Shown here piece by piece: positions 15,776 to 59,975 of a stretch of 64,000 nucleotides of DNA. The stretch covers positions 2,618,384 to 2,682,383 of the forward strand of contig NZ_CP017006.1 of assembly GCF_001719125.1 (NCBI RefSeq), read 5' to 3'. Each line of letters starts with the position of its first letter. Positions within the stretch are counted from its first letter, which is position 1. This DNA comes from Sulfolobus sp. A20. Its GTDB lineage: Archaea; Thermoproteota; Thermoprotei_A; Sulfolobales; Sulfolobaceae. The notes beneath the pieces are model-generated. The model saw only the letters and a program-made list of their open reading frames with translations. It was not told the DNA's origin and did no database searches. Made by a program: the position numbers and the translations under genes.

Positions 15776-16222
15776 ATTTTATAATGTAATAAAACCTTTT
15801 TATTTTAACGTCAATCCAATTTTTACGTTATAACGCGCTTATTTAAGCCCCTTTATAAACATAACTATAACGTTATGTTAAAAATCGTTTTATATATTCT
15901 ATCATTTTCAATAAATCTTTAAACGCCTTATTACGATATAATAACCTTATAACGCGTAAATTCAAACAGTATTTGTCAGTCTTCATTAAGTGGTTTAAAA
16001 GTGTAAAAGTATGAGTCTCAATGCGAGAGTTGCGATAATCATTTGGTGAATTAAACGTTTATAAATTAACCCAAACTTTCAAATAAATTAAAAGTCCATG
16101 CGAGAGAAAAACGTTAAAGACTATTACTAGGAAAAACACTCGCATGATAGGGGAAGGTGACTAAAGTAAAATTTATTATAGGGGAAGGAGAAGATAAGGA
16201 ATATGGGTTAATAAACAAATCA
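15776..16222 (+). promoter_or_regulatory. CRISPR leader of array 1
   Basis: Bases from the cas4 relic stop to the first repeat are closely similar to the regions 34304-34750 (reversed) and 39356-39811. Shared blocks include an AT-rich core, a TTTATAAATTAACCC block, and a CATGCGAG inverted repeat whose arms (16097 and 16140 regions) are about 40 bases apart. AAATTTATTATAGGGG near 16168-16183 is a likely TATA box for pre-crRNA, about 45 bases before the first repeat. Confidence 0.85.
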
Positions 16223-19200
16223 GAAGCATCCCATAAGGGATTGAAAGTAGCCCACGCGAAAAATATCATATCGATAAAATCTCCCAAGAAGCATCCCATA
16301 AGGGATTGAAAGAAATAATAGTTTTCAAAATTCTGTGGCGTCCACAAGTCCACAGAAGCATCCCATAAGGGATTGAAAGATTTCTTTCATGTATGAAATA
16401 CACTGTGGGTCATTGATTGAAGCATCCCATAAGGGATTGAAAGAAATTTACATTATTTTGTAATCTATTACAGACACAAAAATGAAGCATCCCATAAGGG
16501 ATTGAAAGACCCATTAAGCCAATACGGATATAATAGTAACATAGGGTTGTGAAGCATCCCATAAGGGATTGAAAGGAAGTTTTTATTTGATTATATATAT
16601 CTTTCCAGCTCGTCATGGAAGCATCCCATAAGGGATTGAAAGAAATTTCCCGATAAACTCATCATACCTAAATAGTAAAAACGAAGCATCCCATAAGGGA
16701 TTGAAAGCTCACTATATAAAAATAATTTTAGCAAAAGATTTTCTGAGAAGCATCCCATAAGGGATTGAAAGTTTAGAAATTGCATTCCTATCACCATTGT
16801 TGTAATGGAAGCATCCCATAAGGGATTGAAAGTATTTTTTGGTATTGGCAGTTATCGTTAGAAAGTAAGGAAGCATCCCATAAGGGATTGAAAGGGTTCA
16901 ACAGTCTACCCAGTTTGAATCTTTAGCCTACACAACGAAGCATCCCATAAGGGATTGAAAGTTGATGAAATTGTATATTAGTAAATACAAACTCTGTCCC
17001 AGAAGCATCCCATAAGGGATTGAAAGTACGCTTTTTCGATCTCGTTCTTTATTTCGTCCAAACTTGAAGCATCCCATAAGGGATTGAAAGTTTGGATATG
17101 ATTTCGCCGAAACCCATAACTTGTTTAACTGAAGCATCCCATAAGGGATTGAAAGCTCACCTTGTAATACATACACTTCTTGAAGTCAGTAAAAGAAGCA
17201 TCCCATAAGGGATTGAAAGTTATCGATTTGTTAATCGGCTTAATGGTCGCAGGTCTCGTAGAAGCATCCCATAAGGGATTGAAAGTGTTTGTTGAAAATC
17301 TTTACAGCAATTTCAAAGTAAGACTCGAAGCATCCCATAAGGGATTGAAAGCTTTTCACTAAAATTTTTTAGTTTATAAATGTCTTTACGGAAGCATCCC
17401 ATAAGGGATTGAAAGTCTTTCACGATAAAAGTCTACAATAGAATTGCTGGAAATGAAGCATCCCATAAGGGATTGAAAGAACCCACCTATTACTATAGGG
17501 GTTTTATCTGGTTTACTCGAAGCATCCCATAAGGGATTGAAAGAAATAATAACAGTATTATTCCCATAACCATGCCTGCTCCGAGAAGCATCCCATAAGG
17601 GATTGAAAGAAATCAGCTACAATCCAGAAATGTATTCCAATTTTTTACGGAAGCATCCCATAAGGGATTGAAAGTCGGGTACCCAGATCTCACGGTTTTT
17701 TATCTTGAGGCATGAAGCATCCCATAAGGGATTGAAAGATAAAGATATTTAGAAAAAGGGAAATAGAAGAAATAGAAAGAAGCATCCCATAAGGGATTGA
17801 AAGCTATTAAATTTGTAAACCTTTACTGGATTACTGTGCGAAGGAAGCATCCCATAAGGGATTGAAAGCAGTTCATAGTTTCTAAGATTTTCTTTTTGTA
17901 ATCTCTTAGAAGCATCCCATAAGGGATTGAAAGGCTGGTATTAGCCTTAAGTCACTATTAATTACATTCAAGAAGCATCCCATAAGGGATTGAAAGATAT
18001 GTAGCCTTTCCAATAGCTCGTCTATGTCGCCCTCAGGAAGCATCCCATAAGGGATTGAAAGATATCAAAAACCCTTAAGTCTGTTTCACTATCCTTTATA
18101 ACGAAGCATCCCATAAGGGGTTGAAAGACCGTTTCCAGTATTTCTGAGATAATATCGCCCTTCATTGAAGCATCCCATAAGGGATTGAAAGTAAATTCAC
18201 CGAGTTATTGCATCTTTCGCGTCTGGGCTTTGAAGCATCCCATAAGGGATTGAAAGTCTTCAGCCTTTGCAATAATAAGCATATTTTGGTCTTCGTGAAG
18301 CATCCCATAAGGGATTGAAAGTTACCGTTCCTCAAGTGCCACAAGTAGTACACTGCATCAGAAGCATCCCATAAGGGATTGAAAGGTCCTACTTTGGTTA
18401 TATTGTTTTTATGCATATACCTATGAAGCATCCCATAAGGGATTGAAAGATAAGAAATACAAAGACTACACGCCGGACTTCTACGAGAAGCATCCCATAA
18501 GGGATTGAAAGATTGGAAATTTTTCTCTTATCGGTTTTGGTATCGTCATTGAAGCATCCCATAAGGGATTGAAAGTAATCTCCTGCTATCGCCCTATTCA
18601 TTGTAACGGTATCGCGAAGCATCCCATAAGGGATTGAAAGGGTAAATAGTCGTAGCGAGTCGTTTTCTCGTAAGTAAATGAAGCATCCCATAAGGGATTG
18701 AAAGAATTACTTCAGCTATATCTTCAGCTACGTTAAAAATACTAGAAGCATCCCATAAGGGATTGAAAGTCAATTTTCCAAACTTTGAATTTTGCAAACC
18801 GCAAAGTCTTGAAGCATCCCATAAGGGATTGAAAGTAAGTGTTCAATAAGGGAGTACTGAAATTAGAACTGGAGTGAAGCATCCCATAAGGGATTGAAAG
18901 ATTTTGTCACTTTGCACATTTAGATTAAAGTTGTCGAACAGAAGCATCCCATAAGGGATTGAAAGTAACGGTTAGCGAGATACAGTAGATTATTAATCTC
19001 ATTCTCGGAAGCATCCCATAAGGGATTGAAAGACGTAACTTTTCCCCGTTTTTCTCATGAAGTTTACGAGAAACTCGATGCATCCCATAAGGGATTGAAA
19101 GGTTTTAAAATTTTGTTTTGAAAAATTATGTCCCCATATCTGATGCATCCCATAAGGGATTGAAAGGTTAAGAAATTTACTAAATAATCGCCCACACATG

Positions 19201-21174
19201 TTTTCGTGATGCATCCCATAAGGGATTGAAAGGTATTTTATTCGCTACATGTACTTAAAAATTGTATTTTTGATGCATCCCATAAGGGATTGAAAGAACT
19301 TATAGACCTTCACTAGATTACTATGTAATTCACGCCCGATGCATCCCATAAGGGATTGAAAGTTATCTCCCTCTTTTTCACCCTCAAATTTATCGAACTT
19401 TGATGCATCCCATAAGGGATTGAAAGATGATTTGTTGAACTATGTCCATAATTTTGTCGTTTAAGATGCATCCCATAAGGGATTGAAAGATTTCCAAAAG
19501 TTCTGATTTCTCAACATGATAATTTGAGATAAGATGCATCCCATAAGGGATTGAAAGATTTTGATTAATGTTAATTCCGCCAGGTGATGGATTATAAAGA
19601 TGCATCCCATAAGGGATTGAAAGATTAATATAAGTATACATATAGTCACCCTGAGCAGAATTGATGCATCCCATAAGGGATTGAAAGTGAAGATTGAGAA
19701 GACCCTGAGGAGCCAGAACTTTGGATGCATCCCATAAGGGATTGAAAGCGCTAAACGGCAAAACACAAACAGTATTTACAATAACCAAGATGCATCCGAT
19801 AAGGGATTGAAAGGATATTCTTCATGAAACCCTTCTAACTCTGCAACACCTAGATGCACCCCATAAGGGATTGAAAGTATTCGCCGGTTTTGTGATAATA
19901 ATGTATTGCGAATCGATGCATCCCATAAGGGATTGAAAGTTATTCCTTCGTTTTCATATCTAACCACAAAGTAATATTGAGATGCATCCCATAAGGGATT
20001 GAAAGATAATAGCCCTTGACGCGTTACCGTAATGTCTCCACCAAGATGCATCCCATAAGGGATTGAAAGCTCATTTTACTGGGGAGTAAATTGAATTAAA
20101 AGGCAAGAAGATGCATCCCATAAGGGATTGAAAGTCTCTCTCAAATTGAATGATATGTGTAGCCCCTCTTAGGATGCATCCCATAAGGGATTGAAAGGTA
20201 TCATATGTTATCCATAACGTTATTAGTGGTATATAAAGATGCATCCCATAAGGGATTGAAAGGATACCATTCTTTTATTTCAATGTCCCTCCCTATTTCC
20301 TTCGATGCATCCCATAAGGGATTGAAAGGTATAATTTATTGGTTTTATGTAGGCTGTAGACGCTATACTGATGCATCCCATAAGGGATTGAAAGGTGAAA
20401 CAACCGTCTGGAATTTCTAATGAGACGATTTAGATGCATCCCATAAGGGATTGAAAGATACAGCACAGCACAGAAAACTACAAACCCCTGGTCCACCTTT
20501 GATGCATCCCATAAGGGATTGAAAGTCAAGACCGCAATAAACTCAGATTTGGAATCAATTGATTGATGCATCCCATAAGGGATTGAAAGTGAAGATGTTG
20601 AAGAGCTAATAGATTTTGTCAAAAAATGATGCATCCCATAAGGGATTGAAAGGAATTAATATACATATGCAATATTTTATACTTCATAAGATGCATCCCA
20701 TAAGGGATTGAAAGAATCCATTAGCCCGTAGTACGGGTGAATATTGGTCATTATGACGCATCCCATAAGGGATTGAAAGTAAAGTGAAATATTAGAAACA
20801 CTAATTGGAATTAATAGATTTTTGACGCATCCCATAAGGGATTGAAAGGTTTTGTTGTAAAAGCTTATCTTTATTGAAAATTATGGACGCATCCCATAAG
20901 GGATTGAAAGACTGTATATAGTACGTTACCCGTAGCTTGTGTTTGAGATACGACGCATCCCATAAGGGATTGAAAGATGTTTTGTAGTTTAAGAAATGGA
21001 ACCTAGGTACTCTCGGGACGCATCCCATAAGGGATTGAAAGGTTTCGTATGAATATACTTTGTTATCGATAGGATTTATTAGATGCATCCCATAAGGGAT
21101 TGAAAGCTATTCTTGATGACGTCCATAATGAAATTAGTATCGACTTCATGATTCATCCCAAAAGGAACTAAAAT
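16223..21174 (+). CRISPR. CRISPR array 1 (77 repeats, 76 spacers)
   Basis: 25-base repeats with spacers averaging 40 bases, counted by eye as 77 repeats including a degenerate last one at 21150-21174. Leader-side repeats 1-44 begin GAAGCATCCC, repeats 45-70 mostly GATGCATCCC, repeats 71-75 GACGCATCCC and repeat 76 GATGCATCCC again; all end GGGATTGAAAG. The ATTGAAAG end is the usual crRNA 5' tag of Sulfolobales type I-A/III repeats, so transcription runs rightward, which agrees with the leader at the left and the decayed repeat at the right. One repeat (about 18104) has GGGGTTGAAAG. Confidence 0.98.
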
Positions 21175-21610: not shown

Positions 21611-23038
21611 TTACATTATCTTATTCATTACATCATCTAGGTCCTTTGTTAAACTCCCTTTTACATACTCCTCTATCTTTTTCTTACTTATTTGGACATT
21701 GGCTTTTATTTCCCCGTTTCTTACCTCAGTTTTCATGTCTTTGGATAGTCCACCATGCACTAAGTAATTCCTCAATTGCATTATAGCACTATGCTTATTT
21801 CTTAATATATCATTTGTTATTTCATCACATTCTTTATATGTACCATCATTATCATCGAAGACTCCTCCTCCTTTATCGTTTAGGCATTTTGCAACAGGTA
21901 ATTCCCTAGCTAGAGACAAAGCTTTATCATAAATTGACGCATTAATATATAACTGGACTAACTCCCTTAACCTCTCTATATCGTCTTTCCCACTAATGAT
22001 AATTTTATTTACATTTAAAGTCGAGTAAAAATTGGAAATAACTATTTCCTTAATATTTTCTAAATTAGGGTGGTCATACCATTCTCTGTAAAAATTAGAT
22101 AAGTTAGATACATCATCTTTTAATTCAGATAGATATTTACTGACATCGTTCATAGAATTTATTGCATTGACAGTAAAGCCATTCCTTAAATTCCACAAAA
22201 GGTCTATCACTCTATTTGGGTCTTTAGCCTTTATTTTATCGATAACTTCTTTCTCGTTATCATTAAAGTTCTGGGGATTAATATTTTTTAACCTGCTTAT
22301 ATAATCTCTAAAGTACCTGTCATCAAGCTTTTCTATAGATGAGACTATCATTAGTGAGTCCTTCATAGATTCAACTATATCTGTGAGCTCTACAATATCT
22401 ACCTCATCTTGGCTTGGTGCTCCCATTATTGGTGATGCGAAAAATCGGGATTTGAACAGAGCCCCCACAGCCATAGTTATTGACGTTAAGACGTTAGTCC
22501 CGTGAGTTAGATCTATAAACACCTCATTATTTTCACTTAAATCATGCAATATAGTATAAATAGTATTAAAGATGAATACAGGGCTTCTGGACGTAGAGTA
22601 CTTAACCCTTTTATAACCCTTATTGTCCTTTTCTAGTTGTCCATCACTATTAACCTTTATTGCCTGCCCTATGCCAACGTTGGGTATTACCTCAATCTCT
22701 AGCTTATCGACTAATGATTTGATATCTTCCTCAATATCTTTAGTTATTTTATTTTCACCCAATAGAGATTCTGCCCTATCTGAAATAAGTTTTTTATACC
22801 CTTCTTTAAGGGTATTTATATCGTCGGGAGATAGTTTGTTCCCGGCAATATCCTTATTAGATAATAAGCTATCTGGAAGTAATGCTATAGTTTTATCAAC
22901 TTCAAAAATTTTAGATAGTGCGTGAGCGGAAAAGAACGTTTTTACTCCTTTCCCTTCAAATCTGTATGTTATAGGTTTATAATTTGTCACGTCCCCAGCT
23001 AAATATACTAGGCATTTGGATTTTTTTTGAGAGCTCAT
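21611..23038 (-). CDS. csx1: Csx1-type CARF-HEPN ribonuclease
   Basis: 475 residues from the ATG at 23038 (an in-frame TTG at 23041 is upstream). The N-terminal CARF domain begins KCLVYLAGDV and carries the ligand-loop strand VFIDLTHGTNVLTS near residue 180. The C-terminal HEPN domain has the catalytic RNYLVHGGL near residues 424-432 (R-X4-H). Csx1 proteins bind cyclic oligoadenylate made by type III Cas10 and then cut RNA non-specifically. A TATA box (GTTTATAATTTATT at 23060-23073) gives a leaderless start. It points toward array 1. No type III complex is in the window, so its activator comes from elsewhere. Confidence 0.88.
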   Translation of the reverse strand: MSSQKKSKCLVYLAGDVTNYKPITYRFEGKGVKTFFSAHALSKIFEVDKTIALLPDSLLSNKDIAGNKLSPDDINTLKEGYKKLISDRAESLLGENKITKDIEEDIKSLVDKLEIEVIPNVGIGQAIKVNSDGQLEKDNKGYKRVKYSTSRSPVFIFNTIYTILHDLSENNEVFIDLTHGTNVLTSITMAVGALFKSRFFASPIMGAPSQDEVDIVELTDIVESMKDSLMIVSSIEKLDDRYFRDYISRLKNINPQNFNDNEKEVIDKIKAKDPNRVIDLLWNLRNGFTVNAINSMNDVSKYLSELKDDVSNLSNFYREWYDHPNLENIKEIVISNFYSTLNVNKIIISGKDDIERLRELVQLYINASIYDKALSLARELPVAKCLNDKGGGVFDDNDGTYKECDEITNDILRNKHSAIMQLRNYLVHGGLSKDMKTEVRNGEIKANVQISKKKIEEYVKGSLTKDLDDVMNKIM

Positions 23039-23041
23039 CAA

Positions 23042-31629: not shown

Positions 31630-34303
31630 CTTTCAATCCCGTTTGGGATGCATCATGTTGAAGAAAGCCTTACTAAATGACGAATTTATTATAATCTTTC
31701 AATCCCGTTTGGGATGCTTCCACAACATATCACTGTGGAAACAACAACCATGGACATATCTTTCAATCCCGTTTGGGATGCATCCGATAATAGTGTAGAG
31801 CTAGAATACATTTGGTACCCCACTTTCAATCCCTATTGGGATGCATCGCCACGGCTTACTAGTTTATGTGACAGATAGTGATATTGTCTTTCAATCCCTA
31901 TTGGGATGCATCTACGATGAGCCATTAAATTGACCTACAAGAACTGCAAACTTTCAATCCCTATTGGGATGCATCAGGATGGAAGTGTAGCTTAAGTCCA
32001 CCAGGGTATATTTGGTTTGCTTTCAATCCCTATTGGGATGCATCTAGAAAACATTAAATTTATACCACATACTACTTATATCTTTCAATCCCTATTGGGA
32101 TGCATCTGGTTGAAATAATATCTAGTGGGTAACTCACACAAAAGAACTTTCAATCCCCATTGGGATGCATCTTTTATTTTCTTAGTTATTTCTCTAACTG
32201 CATAACCTTTTCTTTCAATCCCTATTGGGATGCATCGTGTAATGTTAATGGCTAAGTTTTCGTTAGTTGAAGGATACTTTCAATCCCTATTGGGATGCAT
32301 CATGTTGATTGTGTACCAGAAGAGCTGTTCTGGTTCAATCCTCTTTCAATCCCTATTGGGATGCATCCAAGAATCTCTATATCTAAATCTAGATACTGAA
32401 AACTATTCTTTCAATCCCTATTGGGATGCATCAGACTTGACGCGATACGAATACAGCTAGGACTTACGAACTTTCAATCCCTATTGGGATGCATCCCGAT
32501 GTAGTCTATGGCGCTATTATTGGTGCGTTTGCGAGCTTTCAATCCCGTTTGGGATGCATCGCAGCAAATAACAGAGGGAATGTATGTGCTGAACTACATA
32601 CTTTCAATCCCTATTGGGATGCATCACTGATATACCTCTGTCTAAAGATGATGTATATTGGATTACTTTCAATCCCGTATGGGATGCATCTTCTCTCTCG
32701 TTTTTTCCTCCCTGTGCCGTTAATGGATCTTTCAATCCCGTATGGGATGCATCAATTGTGTAAAATCAAAAGTTAGATTTGAAGGGGGTGTAGTCTTTCA
32801 ATCCCGTATGGGATGCATCCATGGCGATAAATATGAGACCAATTCCCCTTACCATTTTGACTTTCAATCCCGTATGGGATGCATCATTCGCAAATAGATA
32901 TCTCGGTAACAACGAATCAGCTTTCAATCCCGTATGGGATGCATCTATGGGATATCCCATTGTTTATGCGAATAAGCGAGAAATGCTTTCAATCCCGTAT
33001 GGGATGCATCTTGAAGATTGTAAGAGATTAACAAACGGCTGGAAATATATTCTTTCAATCCCGTATGGGATGCATCCTTAGGCGTACCTAATGGAGCACA
33101 AAGTAGCCATATTCTTTCTTTCAATCCCGTATGGGATGCATCGAAATATATTGTAAGTATATTTCAGATAAAGAAATTTGCAACTTTCAATCCCGTATGG
33201 GATGCATCTTTTACTGGGGAGTAAAATACAAAAAATACGAGGAGTGTGCTCTTTCAATCCCGTATGGGATGCATCAAAAAACATCATCGACTATATCTCT
33301 TACAATTTGATTTCTTTCAATCCCGTATGGGATGCATCACTATTGAAGCTACTGTTGGTAGAGTTGCAGAAATCCTCTTTCAATCCCGTATGGGATGCAT
33401 CATTAAGAAGTTTTGAGAATATTATCGATAGGCTTATTGACTTTCAATCCCGTATGGGATGCATCTTGAACCAAAAATTAAATTTTCTCTCTCTCATCTC
33501 TCTTTCAATCCCGTATGGGATGCATCTACTAGAGTGTGTTAGTTTTTACTTAGAGGTGGAAAAAACTTTCAATCCCGTATGGGATGCATCAAGAAACAAC
33601 TTGAGGTAATCAGTGTAGCTGAGGTTCCTGCTATCTTTCAATCCCGTATGGGATGCATCAGACGAGATAGTGAAGTTAAAGCCAATAAAGGTATACTACA
33701 CTTTCAATCCCGTATGGGATGCATCAATAATCGTCACCGACATCCACCCCTACTACGGGCTAATCTTTCAATCCCGTATGGGATGCATCTTGAACCAAAA
33801 ACGGGCGAGATACTGAGAGAGATCTTTCAATCCCGTATGGGATGCATCACCACCTAATTATTGCGTCTTTCGCGTCTGGGCTCTTCACTTTCAATCCCGT
33901 ATGGGATGCATCCACTCATTTCTCTACGCCTCGGCTAATATATCGTTCTATTTTTCTTTCAATCCCGTATGGGATGCATCAATGTTGGCAGCAAGACCAA
34001 TAAGTTTTGAGGAATTGCTTTCAATCCCGTATGGGATGCATCTTGATAGAGACGTATTTCAAAAAATACCCAGGGCAAGTCTTTCAATCCCGTATGGGAT
34101 GCATCGCATATTTTACAAAATCTGGTAAAGAAATGAAATATTGTAATCTTTCAATCCCGTATGGGATGCATCATAAGGCAAGTAGGGAAGAAGTACCAAG
34201 CATATCTTTCCTTTCAATCCCGTATGGGATGCATCCAGATAGAGCCTTTCAACCCAGATGTCTCATCTCTTTTCCCTGCTTTCAATCCCGTATGGGATGC
34301 ATC
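31630..34303 (-). CRISPR. CRISPR array 2 (42 repeats, 41 spacers)
   Basis: On the plus strand each 25-base repeat begins CTTTCAATCCC and ends GGGATGCATC; crRNA sense is the minus strand, from the leader at 34304. Spacers average 40 bases. Leader-side repeats have the GTATGGG centre, then from about 32600 to 31850 CTATTGGG, and the three oldest GTTTGGG, so centre variants form blocks that record array growth. One distal repeat ends GGGATGCTTC. There is no clearly decayed last repeat; the array seems cut by a hairpin element. Confidence 0.98.
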
Positions 34304-35864: not shown

Positions 35865-36728
35865 ATGTTCTTCACACTTACTGAAGTGTTATTGCTTGCG
35901 AAAAGAATCAGGCTCAGCCCTAAGGCTGTTTCAGAGGAGTTAAGGGGATGGCACTGGAATGAGCCACCGATCTACCACTCCTCCACTTACTTCTTAAACG
36001 TCTCTGACCTGACTAACGGTTTCTGTGAAACGGGGCGTTATGTGCATTTGAAGCATAAGGGTGTCAAGCCCGAAATCCCTGAGGGGGTCAACGATATCCA
36101 TTACGTTTACTCTGAAGGTATACAGACGATAAAGAGACTGATCTATGAGGAAGGGGAAAACATGAGTGGGAATAGGCTAAGGACTTTAATGACAGACGAG
36201 TTTTATAGAGTCATGGCTAACGTCCATGATGTAGAAAAGGCAAAGATCCTATGGGACCACATAACTAACATCTACTCAGCTGAGATAGATAAATATAAGG
36301 CAAAACAGTTCCTTACTAGGGACTCCTTAGTCTCCCTTATAATACCTTTTCACGTCGAATACCCAATAGACGGTTCTCTTGTAGGACTTCAGAGTAATAT
36401 CAGAGCTGACGCGTTTGTTCCTTTAATTCCGTTAATAGCTGAGATGAAGACTGGAAAGCAGAGAAGAGCCCATGAACTATCGTTAGTAGGTTACGCTTTA
36501 GCTATAGAAAGCCAGTTTGAGATCCCGATAGACTTCGGTTATCTATGTTACGTCATAGTCGACAAAAGCGTTTTAACTAACTGCAGGCTAATACACATTT
36601 CAGACTCTCTGAGAAGTGATTTCTTAGAGGTTAGGGACAGGGGGTTTGAGGCAATAGAGACTGACCCTGGAATGCCTAAGAGATGTGACGACTCTTGCCC
36701 ATTTTTGAGGCACTGTAACAAATTATGA
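35865..36728 (+). CDS. csa1: Csa1 (Cas4-related Fe-S nuclease of type I-A adaptation)
   Basis: 287 residues. Begins MFFTLTEVLLLAKRIRLSP and has EELRGWHWNEPP, typical of Csa1. Cysteines for an Fe-S cluster are in GFCETGRYVHLK and the last CDDSCPFLRHC. RecB-nuclease-like acid-lysine motif: ADAFVPLIPLIAEMKTGK. Csa1 usually stands in a csa1-cas1-cas2-cas4 module; here it is alone, followed at once by transposon debris, so cas1 and cas2 have been lost from this spot or lie elsewhere. Confidence 0.88.
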   Translation: MFFTLTEVLLLAKRIRLSPKAVSEELRGWHWNEPPIYHSSTYFLNVSDLTNGFCETGRYVHLKHKGVKPEIPEGVNDIHYVYSEGIQTIKRLIYEEGENMSGNRLRTLMTDEFYRVMANVHDVEKAKILWDHITNIYSAEIDKYKAKQFLTRDSLVSLIIPFHVEYPIDGSLVGLQSNIRADAFVPLIPLIAEMKTGKQRRAHELSLVGYALAIESQFEIPIDFGYLCYVIVDKSVLTNCRLIHISDSLRSDFLEVRDRGFEAIETDPGMPKRCDDSCPFLRHCNKL

Positions 36729-38316: not shown

Positions 38317-38850
38317 TCAAAAGAAAACTATAGTTCTAGCCTTACTCGTGTATAGATCACACAAGTAACCTAGGCACTGCCCCTTATCGTAAACACCTAA
38401 CGCCTTATCCTTTATCTCATAATACCTCTTCTTAATCCTATCGTATTCCTCCTCATCTATTATACTGGTAACTAGGTGAGCACCTATCTCTCTTGCCGTT
38501 AAAGCTGCAGCTGCACTTATAGCCTTCCTTCCCCCGGTGAAGTCCAGATAATCCCCAACCTTCAAAACCTCTCTGAGCTTCTCCCTAACTGTGATGAAAT
38601 CTTTAGGAGAGGATATATCGTCAAAAGGTAAAGTGATCTCCTTTACCTTAGTGAAGTTAACACAACACATGAACACTGCCTTAAGGACGTAGAATGTCTC
38701 CTTAGTCTCCCCAGTAGTGATCACTACTACTTCGTCCAAATCAACTTTATGAGGGGGGAAGGTCGAGATGTAGTCAGCGTTAGTCAGTTTCTCAAACGTC
38801 TCTACCGTACCACCGACAGTTTTACCTAGTGTGGCTACTAGTTTGACCAT
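38317..38850 (-). CDS. crn1: Crn1-type CRISPR ring nuclease (CARF)
   Basis: 177 residues, the size of Crn1 from Sulfolobus. Landmarks: MVKLVATLGKTVGGTVETF (first CARF loop), FMCCVNF, and YLDFTGGRKAISAAAAL (second ligand loop with conserved GGRK). Ring nucleases break cyclic tetra-adenylate and so switch off Csx1-type effectors. In the family sequence I remember, the first loop has Ser where this protein has Thr11, which might alter rate. Leaderless start with TATA near 38871-38884. Stands alone between a MITE and leader 3. Confidence 0.88.
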   Translation of the reverse strand: MVKLVATLGKTVGGTVETFEKLTNADYISTFPPHKVDLDEVVVITTGETKETFYVLKAVFMCCVNFTKVKEITLPFDDISSPKDFITVREKLREVLKVGDYLDFTGGRKAISAAAALTAREIGAHLVTSIIDEEEYDRIKKRYYEIKDKALGVYDKGQCLGYLCDLYTSKARTIVFF

Positions 38851-39811: not shown

Positions 39812-42800
39812 GATGCATCCCATACGGGATTGAAAGATATTCCGGATGAAAAGGCATATGAAAAGTTAAAGGCGAAGATGCATCCCATACGGGATTGAAA
39901 GAATCATAAAAAGCATTTGATTTTGGCGCGTTAGCGCTTTGATGCATCCCATACGGGATTGAAAGAACTCAAAATCGCTGTATATCCCTCGCCGGCTCTA
40001 TGAGGGATGCATCCCATACGGGATTGAAAGCATTACTAGTTTCCTCCATGTTAACGTCCACCACATCTGATGCATCCCATACGGGATTGAAAGTTTTATA
40101 CAATATTGTTAAGAAACATCACCAATACTTCGATGCATCCCATACGGGATTGAAAGTATTAAACCAACGACTCCTTACGAATAGAGAGATAGAGATGCAT
40201 CTCATACGGGATTGAAAGTGTGCTGTGATATTTGTATCAGTAAGCAATTTATCTAACAACGGATGCATCCCATACGGGATTGAAAGGTCAATAGCTCACC
40301 CCATATAACAGCTCATAATATGATGCATCCCATACGGGATTGAAAGGCTTTTGGATATTGCTTTTGGACTTCCTGTAACAGTGAAATCGATGCATCCCAT
40401 ACGGGATTGAAAGAAAATCTTCACCCCTTCCATGAGATGGATATAGAGCAATTGATGCATCCCATACGGGATTGAAAGGGTACAACTGGGTTCATTTCCC
40501 CAGTGTCTTCTGGCTCGATGCATCCCATACGGGATTGAAAGAATCTACAGTTTTTATCGCTGTGTGTACAATTATTTCTAAGGATGCATCCCATACGGGA
40601 TTGAAAGTGAAAAAATTTCACTTTGGAAACCGTCTTGATATATTATTGATGCATCCCATACGGGATTGAAAGTTACTTAATTCGAATGTTCCATAATTCA
40701 CAAAGACTTTAGGATGCATCCCATACGGGATTGAAAGAAATAAGCATGACCTTTTATCGTGCCAAACATATAATCATGATGCATCCCATACGGGATTGAA
40801 AGAGAATCACTAGGAGAAGGAGTAACTAAAGGAGTAGTAAAAGGGATGCATCCCATACGGGATTGAAAGGACCAACAATCAATGCCAACTTTGGCATATC
40901 ATAGCCATGATGCATCCCATACGGGATTGAAAGACTGTGGCATATGTTAACCTAGCCACAATGACTAAAACGATGCATCCCATACGGGATTGAAAGAATG
41001 ACCCTGATAATGGTATATGGAGTTTAGGTTTTTACATGATGCATCCCATACGGGATTGAAAGTTACTTAATTCGAATGTTCCATAATTCACAAAGACTTT
41101 AGGATGCATCCCATACGGGATTGAAAGAAATAAGCATGACCTTTTATCGTGCCAAACATATAATCATGATGCATCCCATACGGGATTGAAAGAAAAGTAA
41201 AACTAATTGGGGGCTAATAATAGGCGTAGTAGGATGCATCCCATACGGGATTGAAAGCTGTTATCGAGATATAATGATATTCTCCCATTCTGTATGATGC
41301 ATCCCATACGGGATTGAAAGATAATGTCTTTATTTGAACTACAGAGGAATGGATGTCTTGATGCATCCCATACGGGATTGAAAGTACAATTTCCAGCACG
41401 TCAGACATACCCACTATGTCTAGGATGCATCCCATACGGGATTGAAAGTAATTTTTATAATTTCATCAGCAGTAACACGATAAAAGATGCATCCCATACG
41501 GGATTGAAAGATGTCTCATCGTCGGCAGACAGTGCTCTATTCATCTCAAGATGCATCCCATACGGGATTGAAAGATCAGTGGCTTCAGTCTTCTCTTATA
41601 ATTCTCATACCTGATGCATCCCATACGGGATTGAAAGTATGTAAAATTTAGGGAAAATACCTAGAGGTCCAGTAAGAGGATGCATCCCATACGGGATTGA
41701 AAGAGTATATGTTCAACAGCTGAGAGACATTAACATTTTGCTGATGCATCCCATACGGGATTGAAAGAATTAATATATCTTCTGCGAGAGTTAGAGCCAT
41801 TTTTTGATGCATCCCATACGGGATTGAAAGTCCCCATCCCCTTTGCTATCTCTTTTACCTGTGTCGCCGGATGCATCCCATAAGGGATTGAAAGTGATTC
41901 GTTAAATCGGGGAATTTAACGCGTTCAAACATTTGATGCATCCCATAAGGGATTGAAAGTTTTCTTCTTCATTAGCAAAGCGTACGCAGCTATACCAAGA
42001 TGCATCCCATAAGGGATTGAAAGTTTATATCATCATCTTTCCGCATAGTCTCGGCGACCCGATGCATCCCATAAGGGATTGAAAGATATTAGCCAAAAGC
42101 CCCTTAAAGACTGACTTTCTCGATGCATCCCATAAGGGATTGAAAGGCGTTTCCACTGGCATAAGAACCACCTAGCTCTATTGGCGATGCATCCCATAAG
42201 GGATTGAAAGGATATATATGTACGACCATCACGAAACAAACCTAAAGTTGATGCATCCCATAAGGGATTGAAAGCACGTTACCAGTGCAATAGCGAGTGA
42301 CTACAAACGAATACTGATGCATCCCATAAGGGATTGAAAGCGGTTTGACAATTATGAACGTATCGGTTTGCTTAAGCAATGATGCATCCCATAAGGGATT
42401 GAAAGATAGATGAATATTATAATCCTATAATTCCCCCATTAATCTTTCGATGCATCCCATAAGGGATTGAAAGCATCATGGCAGGGTCTTGACGCTGAGA
42501 TAACAGCAATAAAGATGCATCCCATAAGGGATTGAAAGAAGATTTCTACTAACTTTTGCATTAACATCTCTCGCTTTTGATGCATCCCATAAGGGATTGA
42601 AAGTTGTCAACCTCGAAGTAGTACGGTATGCTTGCTAAAACCTGATGCATCCCATAAGGGATTGAAAGATTCTCGAAAATTGCAGTTGTGTTAGATGCAA
42701 AAATTACGGATGCATCCCATAAGGGATTGAAAGTTACAAAATCTGTAAAGTAGTTTTTCTGTAAAGCTAAACTGTGATGCATCCCATAAGGGATTGAAAG

Positions 42801-44500
42801 AGTTCTGTCTTGAACGCTGTTCTATTTCTCCATGTCTCTAGGATGCATCCCATAAGGGATTGAAAGATCGTCAACTACAACATATAACAATTTACAGATT
42901 ACATTTGATGCATCCCATAAGGGATTGAAAGCTATATCTTGTGTTGTGCTCTTTAAACATGGCTTTGAAAAAGATGCATCCCATAAGGGATTGAAAGTTA
43001 TGAATGTGGTAGATGCCATCTGGTATTGGCATTAGAACAAGATGCATCCCATAAGGGATTGAAAGTCTTTTAACGCGTTCAAAAATATTTGCCATACCCC
43101 TATTTGGATGCATCCCATAAGGGATTGAAAGAAGAAACAAAATTATACATAAGTAATGCCAGCTTACTTTGTGTGATGCATCCCATAAGGGATTGAAAGT
43201 AACTAACATAGTAACCATTCTGTGCCCATGGCTCCCACTGATGCATCCCATAAGGGATTGAAAGCCAACCCCAGCTGTTAGGGGGGAAGAGCCAGCAATC
43301 GGATGCATCCCATAAGGGATTGAAAGGAATAACACTGTTTATATGATTGATCACCATGAATCAAAGATGCATCCCATAAGGGATTGAAAGATTGGGATTA
43401 GCTAGAACTTGTGCACTTTGAGGGATAACATGATGCATCCCATAAGGGATTGAAAGATTCCTTTCTGCATTTTTACGTAATCTGGTTTATCGTAAGATGC
43501 ATCCCATAAGGGATTGAAAGACCGTATAAGGCTGATTTTGTGGTTGTGCAGAGATTATTGATGCATCCCATAAGGGATTGAAAGTTGCAGCTACATTTGG
43601 ATGGCTCAGTGCGAAGAATGATACGTGATGCATCCCATAAGGGATTGAAAGCCTAATTTCTCTGTTGGTCTATTCCAGCCTAGTAGTTCCTGATGCATCC
43701 CCAACGGGATTGAAAGCTGTGATGTTTCTCATGTTATATATGTCCAGCTTCCATTCTGATGCATCCCCAACGGGATTGAAAGTTATTTCCTAAAATTTGG
43801 ATGTGCCTACTGGTATGAGATGCATCCCCAACGGGATTGAAAGAGACATCCCCCTTTCTTTCCCTAACCACTCTGGCTTAAAGGATGCATCCCCAACGGG
43901 ATTGAAAGATTGCTAACCAGTACTCATCTGTTCCTTTTCTTTTTCCCGCGATGCATCCCCAACGGGATTGAAAGCTCTACTATTTGATTTGCGATGTTCA
44001 TAGCGTCGTTTTCATGATGCATCCCCAACGGGATTGAAAGCGTTTGAATATATTGTTGTAGTATGTCTAACGCCTTTAAGATGCATCCCATAAGGGATTG
44101 AAAGCCTAGACTTCCTACTGCCACTAAATATACCGTAACTCCTGATGCATCCCAAACGGGATTGAAAGACTACTGATCTCTATAGTGATAAGGGAAGAGA
44201 TAGGATATGATGCATCCAAATAGGGATTGAAAGGTGAAACTGTTCTGCATTGATGTCACTGCAGTGACAGTCGTATTGATGCATCCCAATAGGGATTGAA
44301 AGTTGGACTTATATCCTCTTCAGGGGTTTGGGAAACTTGCGGGTTCGATGCATCCAAATAGGGATTGAAAGGTAGAGTTGAGTAATCCCATAGTATGGAA
44401 AATACTGTAACGATGTATCTCAAAAGAGATTGAAAGGAGCTGTCTATAGCGCATTTGTGTTCAACTAATCTACGAGAGATGCATCCTAAAAGGATAAAGC
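39812..44500 (+). CRISPR. CRISPR array 3 (73 repeats, 72 spacers)
   Basis: 25-base repeats beginning GATGCATCCC and ending GATTGAAAG, spacers averaging 40 bases, counted by eye. Centres change in blocks: ATACGGG for repeats 1-32, ATAAGGG for 33-60 and 67, CAACGGG for 61-66, then AAACGGG, AAATAGGG and decayed types to 44478-44500. Transcribed rightward from the leader at left. Two adjacent spacers (with the repeat between) occur twice: 40672 and 41063. Confidence 0.98.
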
Positions 44501-48023: not shown

Positions 48024-48047
48024 GCCTTAGTTTCTTGTCGTAAGTAC
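48024..48047. repeat. Stray array-4-type CRISPR repeat
   Basis: 24 bases containing TTAGTTTCTTGTCGTAAGTAC, about 21 of 24 identical to the array 4 repeat and in the same direction. It is about 500 bases beyond the leader-distal end of array 4, on the far side of a gene, so either the array once extended here or the gene was inserted into it. Confidence 0.75.
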
Positions 48048-48105
48048 GGGCGAAGTTTCTCTAGGCTAGCAAGACCAACAGGTTCGAAAGTCCAGCTACA
48101 GCCTC

Positions 48106-48513
48106 CTATTTACCTCCTGTGGTAACTCCTTCCTCTTTTAGCCTCTTGACGAACTGGTCGAACCACCTATCCATGAAGAGGATCCCAGAGAACCTCTCCA
48201 TCCAACCCTCGTACTCGAACCTGAGCTCCACTTGAGAGTCAGCAACTCTTATTACGAGTTTCCCCTCCCCTTTCCCGGTACCGGCTGTGAGGTAGATCTT
48301 ATAGGTTATCTGTTCTCCCTTATTGAGTATCCCGTAGATGTGGAACCTCATCCCCATGAACCTTCCGTATGCATTAAAGGAGTCGCCGGTCACCTCCACT
48401 TCCTTTATAGGTGGGAAGAGCCTGGGGAGCACAAACTCCGGGTCCGAAAGGACTGAGTACAGCTGAGAGTTGCTGTATGGGAGGTGAATCGTGACGGATT
48501 TCTCCATAGACAT
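48106..48513 (-). CDS. SRPBCC-fold protein, DUF3211-like
   Basis: 135 residues from ATG 48513; a TATA box (CTTTATAAG, 48528-48536) is about 26 bases before the next ATG at 48507, which may be the true leaderless start. The protein reads EKSVTIHLPYSNSQLYSVLSD-like at the start (landmark YSVLSDPEFVLP), then strands LVIRVADSQVELRFEY and a C-terminal helix FMDRWFDQFVKRL, the pattern of START/SRPBCC proteins and of the Sulfolobales DUF3211 family. Likely a lipid or small ligand binder; no known role in CRISPR. It is enclosed between a stray repeat and array 4. Confidence 0.65.
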   Translation of the reverse strand: MSMEKSVTIHLPYSNSQLYSVLSDPEFVLPRLFPPIKEVEVTGDSFNAYGRFMGMRFHIYGILNKGEQITYKIYLTAGTGKGEGKLVIRVADSQVELRFEYEGWMERFSGILFMDRWFDQFVKRLKEEGVTTGGK

Positions 48514-48552
48514 AATTAATCTCTCCCCCTTATAAAGATTTGGCAATTAGGA

Positions 48553-51500
48553 GGTTTAGTTTCTTGTCGTTAGTACTGAGGCCACGTTAGGTTTCTCAGA
48601 GCAAAGCTTAGTTTTAGTTTCTTGTCGTTAGTACACTTATAACTACACTTCACCTATGTATGTAACAGTGTTTTAGTTTCTTGTCGTTAGTACCTGAACA
48701 GCCCTGAAGAGAGTATCGCGGAACAGGTAGTTTTAGTTTCTTGTCGTTAGTACATGCCTCGTGATCTTTCAAACCCATTACGATGCGAGGTTTTAGTTTC
48801 TTGTCGTTAGTACCTTCCGGTAATTATGATTAGACCCAACTTATTTTGTTTTAGTTTCTTGTCGTTAGTACGATAAATCCTATTAATATAATTAAGAATT
48901 TCACAAAGTTTTAGTTTCTTGTCGTTAGTACGCTTAACATTTAAATTATTGAGTGCAGAAAAAGAAGTTTTAGTTTCTTGTCGTTAGTACTGTATCTTTT
49001 TGATTCCTGAACAGCCATTTATACGTTTTAGTTTCTTGTCGTTAGTACACCTCTGTAATCCTTTTCAGTATTTCTCGGAAATGTTTTAGTTTCTTGTCGT
49101 TAGTACAAAGAGCTAGCCAGGACAGATAAGAAGCTACTTATAACGTTTTAGTTTCTTGTCGTTAGTACATTTTCTCAGGGGATATTCTACGTTATTTGTT
49201 AATGTTTTAGTTTCTTGTCGTTAGTACGATATTTCACGTTATGCAATACACAATTTTGAGAAAGTTTTAGTTTCTTGTCGTTAGTACAAGGGGTTAACAG
49301 CTTAATGGAGTTCTATTATGAGTTTTAGTTTCTTGTCGTTAGTACTAGGGTTTTACATAGGAAGGCTTCCAAAAGGCTATGTTTTAGTTTCTTGTCGTTA
49401 GTACACTAAAAGCAATAATTTACCAGTTTTTGTAAAATATTTGAGTTTTAGTTTCTTGTCGTTAGTACATTGTTGTATTTATTTGTCACTGGCAACCCAA
49501 ATGTTTTAGTTTCTTGTCGTTAGTACCTTTTGATGTAAATGTTCTCAACAGCATCATAAAAGTGTTTTAGTTTCTTGTCGTTAGTACACTGATTGCACAC
49601 CAGATAGGGTGACTTTTAGCAGTTTTAGTTTCTTGTCGTTAGTACTATTATCTCTTCAAGTTTATTCACGATCTGCCATGTTTTAGTTTCTTGTCGTTAG
49701 TACACTTCTGCACTGTCTGACATTACCTGCACAGCTTTATTAAGTTTTAGTTTCTTGTCGTTAGTACGTTTTGGTTTAATGGGAAAGGCTGTAATGTAGT
49801 GTTGTTTTAGTTTCTTGTCGTTAGTACAACAAATTCTACAATACGTAGCGCAGGGATACAATGTTTTAGTTTCTTGTCATTAGTACTTATACATTCAGTA
49901 ACGCTGTACAACAGATGGCGCAAACGTTTTAGTTTCTTGTCGTTAGTACCCTGCTGTAAGTTATTAATGTTCCTCTGCAACGTTTGGTTTTAGTTTCTTG
50001 TCGTTAGTACGATTTCGCTGTATATACCAGGTAATTGTTGTAAAGTTTTAGTTTCTTGTCGTTAGTACTTATAGGATATCTCTATACCATTAGCCTTCAT
50101 CTGTTTTAGTTTCTTGTCGTTAGTACAGGGCTCGCCAGGGTCTTCGTAGCGTACAATTACTCGTTTTAGTTTCTTGTCGTTAGTACTATAGATGCGTACA
50201 ACGAGGCGATAGATCAGCTTGTTTTAGTTTCTTGTCGTTAGTACTCGTATGACGAGGACACAGCGAGATACAGGATAACCGTTTTAGTTTCTTGTCGTTA
50301 GTACTTACCATATGCGGACAGAGTACTGAAAATCCGATAGTTTTAGTTTCTTGTCGTTAGTACATGCGCTAGGTAGTGTCTCTTTCAGTGTTGATATTGT
50401 TTTAGTTTCTTGTCGTTAGTACATATGTGAAACTTACCGAAAAAGCTTTCCAGACTATGGTTTTAGTTTCTTGTCGTTAGTACAAACCTACCTAATGAAG
50501 TGGCTAGCTCAGAAGATAAGTGTTTTAGTTTCTTGTCGTTAGTACATATTCAGAAGCAGTTATAATCGAGATCGAATCACCTGTTTTAGTTTCTTGTCGT
50601 TAGTACGACTGTAGGCATTTGAGGAAGATAAGCCCTAGCTCTGTTTTAGTTTCTTGTCGTTAGTACGATTTATCAATTGTCCCGATAAACAACGTAATAA
50701 TGTTTTAGTTTCTTGTCGTTAGTACGGGGTACAGTATAATTTTTGAAATCTTTGTGTGATATGTTTTAGTTTCTTGTCGTTAGTACAGATATCGTAATAA
50801 AGACTGGGGGTAAAGGACATTTAGTTTTAGTTTCTTGTCGTTAGTACTACAGCAAAATGCAAACAATAACAATCAGAAAACAGATGTTTTAGTTTCTTGT
50901 CGTTAGTACAATAAATCTAGGTTGAACGGAGGTTCAAGATAACTCTGTTTTAGTTTCTTGTCGTTAGTACGCATTGTTTTCCCCCCAGCTAACGCTTGCA
51001 GTCTTACAGTTTTAGTTTCTTGTCGTTAGTACTAGGGGCATTTACATTAAAAGGATTTGATGCTTTAGGTTTTAGTTTCTTGTCGTTAGTACATCTTACT
51101 AGGCTAGATAGATACTTTACGGCATTTGGGTTTTAGTTTCTTGTCGTTAGTACCCTAAAGAATAAGAACCATATCAACAATAGGATAATTATAATGTTTT
51201 AGTTTCTTGTCGTTAGTACGGAGAACTTCCGCCACTACCACCCGCCCCTCCACGTTTTAGTTTCTTGTCGTTAGTACCTTGTTTCAATATCGACTTATAT
51301 CGCACTTTACACGTTTTAGTTTCTTGTCGTTAGTACATACACAACATCTCTACGACTTTATAGCGATTTGAAGTTTTAGTTTCTTGTCGTTAGTACCTCT
51401 TGTGGGTGTTAATGTGGCTACAGACTTTACCAGTTTTAGTTTCTTGTCGTTAGTACCATGTATAGTAATCAGCTGGGAGTTCCTCAAGCCTGTTTTAGTT

Positions 51501-54500
51501 TCTTGTCGTTAGTACAAACTAAGTTTGATTTTGCAAAGAATGAGATTCTGTTTTAGTTTCTTGTCGTTAGTACGATATATTATGTCACAACATTCCACTT
51601 GAGATAAAGTTTTAGTTTCTTGTCGTTAGTACTCTTCCTTCTTTAAGGTATCTGTAAGTCCAGGGTTGTGTTTTAGTTTCTTGTCGTTAGTACACTATTC
51701 TCACCCGCTTTCAAACTCTGAAAACACTTGATGTTTTAGTTTCTTGTCGTTAGTACTTTGATAGTAGAAAGTGTCTCTATTTACCAGTAAGTTTTAGTTT
51801 CTTGTCGTTAGTACGATGATATTGTAAATGATATAGAAATTGGCAAAAAGTTTTAGTTTCTTGTCGTTAGTACAGGGAAGAACTTGAGGCTAGGTATTTC
51901 ATTCCAATGTTTTAGTTTCTTGTCGTTAGTACAACTACGCTCTTAATGCTATAAATAACTTTATCGAGTTTTAGTTTCTTGTCGTTAGTACTTTGAAATC
52001 GCATTATCATATTGAAGAGATATCAAAAGTTTTAGTTTCTTGTCGTTAGTACACACTCTGAACTTCTATGGAGCCTCTTTAGCACGTTTTAGTTTCTTGT
52101 CGTTAGTACGAATTTGCATAAAATGCATTTGGAGAATTGAAGTGAGTTTTAGTTTCTTGTCGTTAGTACGATGGTATTGTTGTTGTGGCGGTATCGGAAA
52201 AGCCAAGTTTTAGTTTCTTGTCGTTAGTACCAGTGGGTTAATCCCAATAGTAGGACAGGCACCAGGTTTTAGTTTCTTGTCGTTAGTACACGTAACCAGT
52301 TGGAGATCCTGTAATTATATTTGTGTTTTAGTTTCTTGTCGTTAGTACAGGTTCAATCAACCTTGAGCAGTTTGTGGTCACAGTTTTAGTTTCTTGTCGT
52401 TAGTACGAAGTTTGGGTACAGGCTTCCGATTAAGCCGTTGTGGGTTTTAGTTTCTTGTCGTTAGTACATAGGGTAGATGGGCTTAATTCAGAGGGATTAT
52501 GGGTTTTAGTTTCTTGTCGTTAGTACATATATTATATAGGTATATCAGATACCCCTTTTTCTGTTTTAGTTTCTTGTCGTTAGTACGTACCTCCTCCTCC
52601 CCCCTCCTCCGAGTTGATGTTTTAGTTTCTTGTCGTTAGTACATCTCAGAAGTGCAAAGCGAGATTGACACTCTTCAAGTTTTAGTTTCTTGTCGTTAGT
52701 ACGGACTGCAGTCTGTAGTTGTTGTGCTGTGCTTACCAGCGTTTTAGTTTCTTGTCGTTAGTACATTTGCTCATCACGGCTTGCATCTTAGGTTGTGCAG
52801 GTTTTAGTTTCTTGTCGTTAGTACTATTTCGACATAGAAACGTATAGACCTAAGACAGAAGAGTTTTAGTTTCTTGTCGTTAGTACTCTCTCTCATATAT
52901 ACACACACAGAAACCCAGAGGTTTTAGTTTCTTGTCGTTAGTACCTAAATCATTCTTCAGAAGATCTATCCTTATCGTTGTTTTAGTTTCTTGTCGTTAG
53001 TACCGACATGGACAGTAAGCTATAGTAATCCGTTAATGTTTTAGTTTCTTGTCGTTAGTACTAAGTAATTTCCCCGCGACACAAAACGTAAGTATGTTTT
53101 AGTTTCTTGTCGTTAGTACAATTTAGCCCGTTGAGAATAGTGTTTCCGATGTTGGGTTTTAGTTTCTTGTCGTTAGTACAACATTACTAGGTTTGGAAAC
53201 ATGTATTTCTATCTGTTTTAGTTTCTTGTCGTTAGTACTAGGTTACCAAAAGCGTTACCTCCTCCAGTCTGGATGTTTTAGTTTCTTGTCGTTAGTACGA
53301 ATGCCCGTACCCGTCGCGGTTGGAATTATAAATGTTTTAGTTTCTTGTCGTTAGTACTAGGAGTAAGAGCGGATTCTTATATCATAAGAAATGTTTTAGT
53401 TTCTTGTCGTTAGTACGGGAATCCACACTCATCTTGACTGGCGCTAGCCCAGTTTTAGTTTCTTGTCGTTAGTACTACCGGTATTTGCTGTGCCAGCTCC
53501 CGGCGCTGTACCAGGTTTTAGTTTCTTGTCGTTAGTACGTGATGTACTGATGATTTCACTAGACCCCACAATAGTTTTAGTTTCTTGTCGTTAGTACTAT
53601 TTAATTTCTCTGACACGGTCTCGAGTAAGAGATGTTTTAGTTTCTTGTCGTTAGTACATCTCTCAGCAGTTACAGGAGGTAGTGGAATCCTTCTGTTTTA
53701 GTTTCTTGTCGTTAGTACTCTTGTGGATTTTCAAATGAGATTATTTGGTAAATGTTTTAGTTTCTTGTCGTTAGTACTGGAGAATTGAAATGAGAACCAG
53801 ATGGAGCTGTGGTTAGTTTTAGTTTCTTGTCGTTAGTACCCTTCCTCTTGGGCGGGATGTCCCCATCATTTCTTGTGTTTTAGTTTCTTGTCGTTAGTAC
53901 GTTTAAGGTTAGATATAATAGGGGTAAAATCTTTGGTTTTAGTTTCTTGTCGTTAGTACCTTAACTTTGTGATGCGTCCTAAAATAAGCGATTTGTTTTA
54001 GTTTCTTGTCGTTAGTACGCCGTTATTTTCTCGCAATAGTCCAATTCTGAAGGTTGTTTTAGTTTCTTGTCGTTAGTACATGCTTGCACTCCTGCCTGCC
54101 TTAGCTTTTTGGCAATGTTTTAGTTTCTTGTCGTTAGTACAGGTGGTGGTGGCGCTGCAGTGATAGCCCTAATATGTTTTAGTTTCTTGTCGTTAGTACT
54201 TTTCCACATTCATATAGATATTTCCCATCTTTGGTTGTTTTAGTTTCTTGTCGTTAGTACATTCCTCTCGCTTCTAACGTGTTCTCTAACTGAGTTTTAG
54301 TTTCTTGTCGTTAGTACATTATGAGAAAGAGCGAAACGGAAAGAAGTGTGAAATGTTTTAGTTTCTTGTCGTTAGTACTCTTTCTCCTTTGTATTTCTCT
54401 GTTAAGACCTTTCTGTTTTAGTTTCTTGTCGTTAGTACAATTCTTCAAATCCTTCTTCTCTCATCATTTGTTTTGTTTTAGTTTCTTGTCGTTAGTACAT

Positions 54501-55632
54501 AGAACTTATACTCCCGTGCCCATCAAAGCCCCCCGTTTTAGTTTCTTGTCGTTAGTACTTAAGTATCCGTCTGAAAAAAATGGCGTGATATTGTTTTAGT
54601 TTCTTGTCGTTAGTACTTTTATGATAGCGTTGTCCCTCGGGACAACCCTATTAGTTTTAGTTTCTTGTCGTTAGTACATTATGAATCACCACTCACGAAC
54701 AAGACCCTTATGTTTTAGTTTCTTGTCGTTAGTACCTTGCGTAGAGCAAGTATATATAATAAGGATATTTGTTTTAGTTTCTTGTCGTTAGTACGAGGTA
54801 TTGGTGGTGTTCCAGGGGCTAAGATTTTTAGTTTTAGTTTCTTGTCGTTAGTACATCTCAAGTATGAGGATTACGAATTACTAGGTCAGTGTTTTAGTTT
54901 CTTGTCGTTAGTACTTCTCATCTCCTTTAGTATTTCTTCCATATCTTTTAGTTTTAGTTTCTTGTCGTTAGTACATATGCGACTGAGATATTCCAGCTTG
55001 CGAATAATCGTTTTAGTTTCTTGTCGTTAGTACATATTTAGGATTAATCTGTCTAATCATCGGAAATCGTTTTAGTTTCTTGTCGTTAGTACCAAAACGT
55101 GATTGAGGTCGAGTTCACGACAAATAGGGGTTTTAGTTTCTTGTCGTTAGTACTATCTTCTAGAGATTTATGCTAGCAAAAATAATCTTGTTTTAGTTTC
55201 TTGTCGTTAGTACCATATAATCGGAAAATCAGTGTCCAATTTGAATTTGCGTTTTAGTTTCTTGTCGTTAGTACTTGAGGTATCTAAAGGCTTCTTTAAG
55301 ACAAAACAGGTTTTAGTTTCTTGTCGTTAGTACCAATTCCCCACTTTAACACGTCAAAAACTATAATATGTTTTAGTTTCTTGTCGTTAGTACACCTTAG
55401 CCAATTAGTTACATTACTCAAATTCCACTTGTTTTAGTTTCTTGTCGTTAGTACTGTAGAAACAATTTGTGTACCCATAGCGTTCATGTAGTTTTAGTTT
55501 CTTGTCGTTAGTACAACCTACCAGACAGTGATAAAGTGGATGTGTGGCGTTTTAGTTTCTTGTCGTTAGTACACAGTGTCCAGCGATTCGTACGCTGGGT
55601 TCTCAAGAGTTTTAGTTTCTTGTCGTTAGTAC
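48553..55632 (-). CRISPR. CRISPR array 4 (119 repeats, 118 spacers)
   Basis: 24-base repeats; in crRNA sense (minus strand) they begin GTACTAACGACAAG and end ACTAAAAC. Spacers average 36 bases, shorter than in arrays 1-3. I counted one repeat core per 60-base line from 48541 to 55621. The repeats are nearly invariant over 7 kb; variants are the outermost left repeat (48553) and one G-to-A near 49880. The leader is at the right end (TATA 55671-55682). The type I-D cas operon lies 1.5 kb to the right on the same strand and is the natural partner. Confidence 0.98.
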
Positions 55633-59098: not shown

Positions 59099-59104
59099 TT
59101 ATTA

Positions 59105-59188
59105 TCACCCCAGTTTGTATTGAAGGAGATCTGTAATTCCTTGGCGAATGTAGTATGTGTAGCTATCGTTTACTGCATTAAGTTTCAT
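59105..59188 (-). other. 27-codon frame between csc1 and cas3'
   Basis: From an ATG overlapping the csc1 end: MKLNAVNDSYTYYI, then RQGITDLLQYKLG and three consecutive stop codons (TGA TAA TAA). It is in the same frame as the cas3' reading frame that follows 2 codons on. It could be a leader peptide, or a remnant of the cas3' N-terminus separated by new stops. Confidence 0.4.
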
Positions 59189-59945: not shown

Positions 59946-59975
59946 CTTTAGACCCTTTTGCTCTGAGTTAATAGC

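Follow-up and report, generated by a model that had tools for sequence, protein, structure and literature searches.

The genome of Sulfolobus sp. A20, which was isolated from a hot spring in Costa Rica (PMC5127849), consists of a single contig of 2,688,317 bases. The stretch analysed here, in the following called the window, covers positions 2618384-2682383 of this contig (64,000 nucleotides). Our own repeat search found 305 spacers in it, distributed over four arrays. The arrays and the features needed to interpret the first of them are, in window coordinates:

16223..21106, plus strand: array 1, with 76 repeats and 75 spacers (repeat search)
15823..16222, plus strand: leader side of array 1 (400-nt comparison with the flanks of the two arrays that have the same repeat)
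31630-34303, minus strand: second array, 41 spacers (repeat search)
39812 to about 44436, plus strand: third array, 71 spacers (repeat search)
48024-55632: fourth array, with a distinct repeat, 118 spacers (repeat search)
35865..36728, plus strand: gene for the type I-A protein Cas4/Csa1 (280 bits, cut-off 103)

With its regular repeats and spacers and a leader that has homologues at two further arrays, array 1 fits a Sulfolobales type I-A array. Its type I-A cas context is given by Csa1/Cas4, which scored over the cut-off in a scan of a selection of the window's genes. The 400-nt upstream flanks of the first three arrays are homologous, array 1 being 89% identical to either of the other two and those two 98% identical to each other. 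These flanks are therefore the leaders, and the newest spacer of array 1 is the one at 16248. The starts of the array 1 repeats fall into zones: GAA in repeats 1-44, GAT in 45-70, GAC in 71-75 and again GAT in repeat 76. Apart from these zones there are three variants confined to single repeats, at 18103, 19789 and 19853.

Two spacers of this array, numbers 25 and 48, resemble each other:

17804..17843, plus strand, 40 nt: spacer 25 of 75, the newer member of the pair; frame on the minus strand SHSNPVKVYKFN
19297..19337, plus strand, 41 nt: spacer 48 of 75, the older member; frame on the minus strand GRELHSNLVKVYK
17810..17843, plus strand, 34 nt: portion of spacer 25 overlapping spacer 48, with 24 identical bases, 8 transitions and 2 transversions
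19297..19330, plus strand, 34 nt: portion of spacer 48 overlapping spacer 25 (alignment)
17807..17809, plus strand: bases TTA of spacer 25, at what would be the PAM site of spacer 48 according to the alignment

Both are genuine spacers located between array 1 repeats, as the first-pass annotation of this DNA had it. In a same-strand alignment their registers differ by 6 nt, spacer 48 beginning that far into spacer 25. Between 17810-17841 and 19297-19328, 24 of 32 bases are identical and all eight differences are transitions. The full overlap of 34 nt has ten differences, since its last two bases, which reach up to the end of spacer 25, are both transversions. The annotated eight differences in 32 bases, transitions throughout, thus hold for the trimmed segment and not for the whole overlap; the trimming is a slightly favourable cut-off, tilted toward the claim made from it.

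In the recomputed alignment, six of the eight transitions fall, as annotated, at third positions of minus-strand codons and thus share one phase. The peptides SHSNPVKVYK and LHSNLVKVYK are borne out as well: this frame is open in both spacers and eight of the ten residues are identical. Three of the ten codons are unchanged, five differ synonymously and two non-synonymously (CCA/CTA, Pro/Leu; TCG/TTA with two changes, Ser/Leu). A frame on the plus strand is likewise open in both spacers, with only 4 of 11 residues identical. The phase bias has a probability of about 0.025 when any phase is allowed, and among simulated sets of eight random transitions the minus-strand frame stayed open and retained 8 of 10 residues in 3.4% of trials. 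Eight transitions in eight mismatches have a probability of about 1e-4 under random mismatching, a figure that applies to the trimmed 32 nt. The frame signal is modest yet consistent, and the third-position transitions support a minus-strand coding frame under purifying selection, in line with the annotated view that the pair reveals the reading frame of its target. In populations of SIRV, Pn/Ps was reported to be below 1 in all 30 core gene clusters (PMC5454432), a constraint resembling the one in the A20 pair. Spacers in that report also match relatives with mismatches; their targets are known, whereas for the A20 pair none was found in the collections searched.

Unrelated AT-rich spacers might, of course, resemble each other to this degree by chance. 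As a null we used dinucleotide shuffles, comparing each of the 305 spacers with every other one in both orientations. Under +1/-1.5 scoring, the expected number of equally good pairs is 1.34 (158 shuffles, 69% of which hold at least one), which speaks for chance. So does the peptide score by itself, for which an equally good pair occurs in 11% of 865 shuffles, these being poorer in open peptides than the real spacer set (mean 804 versus 910), and so do the two transversions omitted by the 32-nt limit. Five other schemes are much less favourable to chance. Under +1/-1 scoring 0.095 pairs are expected (42 shuffles), and with transition/transversion penalties of -1/-1.5, -1/-2, -0.75/-2 and -0.5/-1.5 the expectation is 0.05, 0.06, 0.03 and 0.0 (41, 34, 31 and 32 shuffles, respectively). 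With -0.5/-2.5, a scheme picked only after the pair had been seen, the pair scores 20, which is reached in 0 of 343 shuffles, the highest value there being 19. Chance is also at odds with the concurrence of three features, namely the restriction to transitions over 32 nt, the third-position bias and the open frame. Plain nucleotide identity is borderline evidence; combined, the tests exceed chance, none of those fixed in advance being overwhelming. A chance resemblance is in our view unlikely and homology of spacers 25 and 48 probable. Both the alignment and the transition-aware shuffles support a shared ancestry of the source sequences, as had been proposed.

The register shift bears directly on how two homologous spacers came to lie in one array. 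Since they are displaced by 6 nt and their ends are unrelated, two captures are indicated rather than a copied spacer. Spacers do become copied in this region: in the third array a block of two adjacent spacers is repeated exactly (40673-40777 and 41063-41167, 390 nt apart), which is an internal duplication. A copied spacer would, however, retain its register relative to the repeats, so that the shift rules out copying within array 1 followed by mutation, a scenario to which we assign practically no probability. Furthermore, spacer 48 is located amid GATGCATCC repeats and spacer 25, 23 positions away, amid GAAGCATCC repeats. Shift, distance and repeat zones agree with the annotated separate captures. 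That these occurred at one protospacer is not quite correct, because the protospacers overlap with an offset of 6 nt and hence differ in their PAM positions.

We consider it probable that the pair goes back to two type I-A captures of overlapping pieces of one protein-coding gene, taken from two related invading elements. The homologous leaders at the low-coordinate flanks and the different repeat zones suggest the order: spacer 48 would have been captured first, from one element, and spacer 25, 23 array positions later, from a relative of that element. Judging from how new repeats are copied, a mutation of the repeat next to the leader presumably took place in the meantime, switching it from GAT to GAA. 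At the captured segment the source elements would have been about 75% identical, and purifying selection on the gene would have left mainly third-position transitions, thereby exposing the minus-strand reading frame. Transcripts of array 1 would yield crRNAs antisense to the predicted target mRNA.

The annotated derivation from two diverged relatives is the most probable origin, but paralogues in one element would produce the same pattern. A single virus or plasmid carrying two divergent members of a gene family could have supplied both spacers; repeated families exist in archaeal viruses, the annotation of STSV2, for instance, listing several consecutive 'PHA02938 superfamily' genes. We regard such an origin as improbable. 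More doubtful still is that spacer 48, by its partial match to a diverged relative, promoted the capture of spacer 25 at an overlapping site. If this priming were true, array 1 would record one invader lineage re-targeted at the same codons, and both the order of capture and the overlap of the sites would fit. However, the source of spacer 25 would have TTA where the PAM of spacer 48 falls, versus the CC at -3,-2 reported for protospacers of family I arrays (PMC3718332). Moreover, other pairs sit in separate arrays or on opposite strands, a distribution that random sampling accounts for equally well.

To return to the two captures from related elements, the target had also been annotated as a viral gene, with the suggestion that the spacers and the peptide be compared with archaeal viruses. 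Our searches of this kind gave no credible matches. A sensitive blastn search of the INPHARED phages returned 15 and 4 records for the two spacers, at E values of 0.6 or worse. A 17-nt match to the lipothrixvirus AFV6 was rejected because the similarity stops at the flank. Among plasmids, spacer 25 hit three records (E values of 0.1, 2 and 6; none archaeal) and spacer 48 none. Of the degenerate peptide patterns run against IMG/VR, two found no contig, and further ones found 8 contigs and 1 contig, where all matches lie within frames of 15-77 codons and were dismissed. Four IMG/VR contigs share a frame of 186-195 codons containing SNLVKVYKH; as their flanks differ, they were set aside as presumably unrelated. 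GTDB contigs gave a single hit, in a 39-codon frame of Mucilaginibacter, and the one genome among 214 of Sulfolobales to match was that of the window, at the two spacers. When up to three mismatches were allowed, the peptide pattern occurred at 21 places in 13 of 31 family genomes, two of these being the spacers and the rest having two or three mismatches; a reversed control pattern occurred at 28 places. In a translated comparison with 22 loci of archaeal viruses (20 records, of which AFV6 and ATV were partial and ARV1 lacked the final 55 bases), the two spacers scored at best 35 and 36, under the median of 37 obtained for 150 shuffled spacers. Because the searches of phages, plasmids, IMG/VR, GTDB and Sulfolobales genomes yielded no target, the term 'viral' is unproven, although viruses may well have been the sources. 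The observation of the first-pass annotation is sound and its interpretation right in outline, being overstated in 'one protospacer' and 'viral'. One virus, Sulfolobus ellipsoid virus 1 (MF144115), is known to infect A20, its only known host, and originates from the same spring as the strain (PMC8515868).

Three gene families were considered as possible targets, and none of them is claimed as such. The segment fits poorly to the rudiviral ORF356 glycosyltransferase. The rudiviral ORF335 glycosyltransferase was rejected because all eight of its aligned members have a Trp in the segment HGQKWKIHKF, whereas both spacers encode Val there. In a profile scan of the merged peptide against 150 families, derived from the open reading frames in archaeal virus loci, PHROG 20350 ranked at the top with a score of 14.8, compared with at most 14.1 among 300 permutations. 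This family is a small protein in AFV3, AFV6, ARV2 and SSRV1. As 4.2% of 1500 random host 15-mers score equally high against some family, PHROG 20350 may be regarded only as a lead.

Independent capture from the same loci has been described previously in Sulfolobales. In the fully sequenced genomes of S. islandicus, 14 of 552 spacers were reported as common to two repeat types when two mismatches were allowed, which the authors attribute to independent acquisition events at shared loci of viruses or plasmids (PMC6858448). Like those cases, the A20 pair would represent different spacers taken separately from the same locus; it differs from them in that both spacers are in one array and 10 of 34 bases differ. 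The pair is in this respect an ordinary CRISPR event. Our literature search, with most subscription journals outside its reach, found no account of it. A pair of related spacers resembles a short fossil alignment of a gene of an invader: even with no target genome at hand, the present one indicates the coding strand, the frame in which it is read and a peptide of 13-15 residues, which can serve as the query once invaders from the A20 spring get sequenced.

Two non-identical pairs in the window are closer than spacers 25 and 48 and, being events of the same type, favour the reading of that pair as two captures. The members of 18192/33849 are identical at 29 of 32 core positions and 30 of 36 overlapping ones, on opposite strands. 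Those of 20715/33726 agree at 25 of 29 and 28 of 35 positions, respectively, and encode IMTNIHPYYGL and IVTDIHPYYGL (9 of 11 residues). The pair 34106/49405 is patchy, with 21 of 22 identities in the core, 25 of 38 in the overlap and transversions making up 12 of the 13 differences; its first member is 81% identical to SSRV1 and 79% to ARV2. Weaker still are 20070/33209, 41895/43066 and 42211/43327, the last found by its peptide. This possible same-gene pair (42211-42249 and 43327-43365) shows mainly at the peptide level, with IYMYDHHET and VYMIDHHES; its peptide score is 42, a value that some pair reaches or exceeds in 4.6% of 865 shuffles.

Eight spacers of the window match the virus loci examined over their full length with at least 74% identity. 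The best four (17352-17390, 17610-17649, 34106-34147 and 52290-52324) have 81-93% identity, all to rudiviruses among these loci, which makes diverged relatives of known viruses a usual source of spacers. The 2016 genome paper states that A20 spacers had no apparent homology to known Sulfolobus or Acidianus viruses (PMC5127849). Where the CC motif at -3,-2 would be expected, spacer 17352-17390 of array 1 has, in the four records listed out of seven matching ones, the flanks CCC (SIRV4, SIRV2) and CTC (V60, SIRV10); for 17610-17649, also of array 1, the four records listed out of five show AGT, TCA, TCG and TCC in four rudiviruses, all these flanks being read in diverged relatives. If the fourth array is read in reverse, spacer 52290-52324 would have AGT or TGT at -4,-3,-2 in the four records listed out of six matching ones. 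The same motif at these positions was reported for family III protospacers (PMC3718332).

Further features belong to the same CRISPR region:

21611-23041: Csx1 CARF-domain protein
38317-38850: ring nuclease Crn1 gene
48106-48546, minus strand: open reading frame between a degenerate repeat and the fourth array, STK_08120-like (Pfam, 7.7e-36)
57092-63583: type I-D genes, with Csc2 over its NCBIfam cut-off and matches to Csc1 and Cas3' under theirs, all three at 57092-61010

The type I-D genes adjoin the GTTTTAGTTTC array; the subtypes listed for A20 in the genome paper are I-A and III-B (PMC5127849). In the segment 48024-48576, a degenerate repeat of the second type is located 505 nt ahead of the rest of its array, and a search of this region found no phage match. 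The open reading frame enclosed there may be a pseudo-spacer of gene size or a gene inserted at the array end; a pseudo-spacer of 1.9 kb was described in S. islandicus LAL14/1 (PMC3718332).
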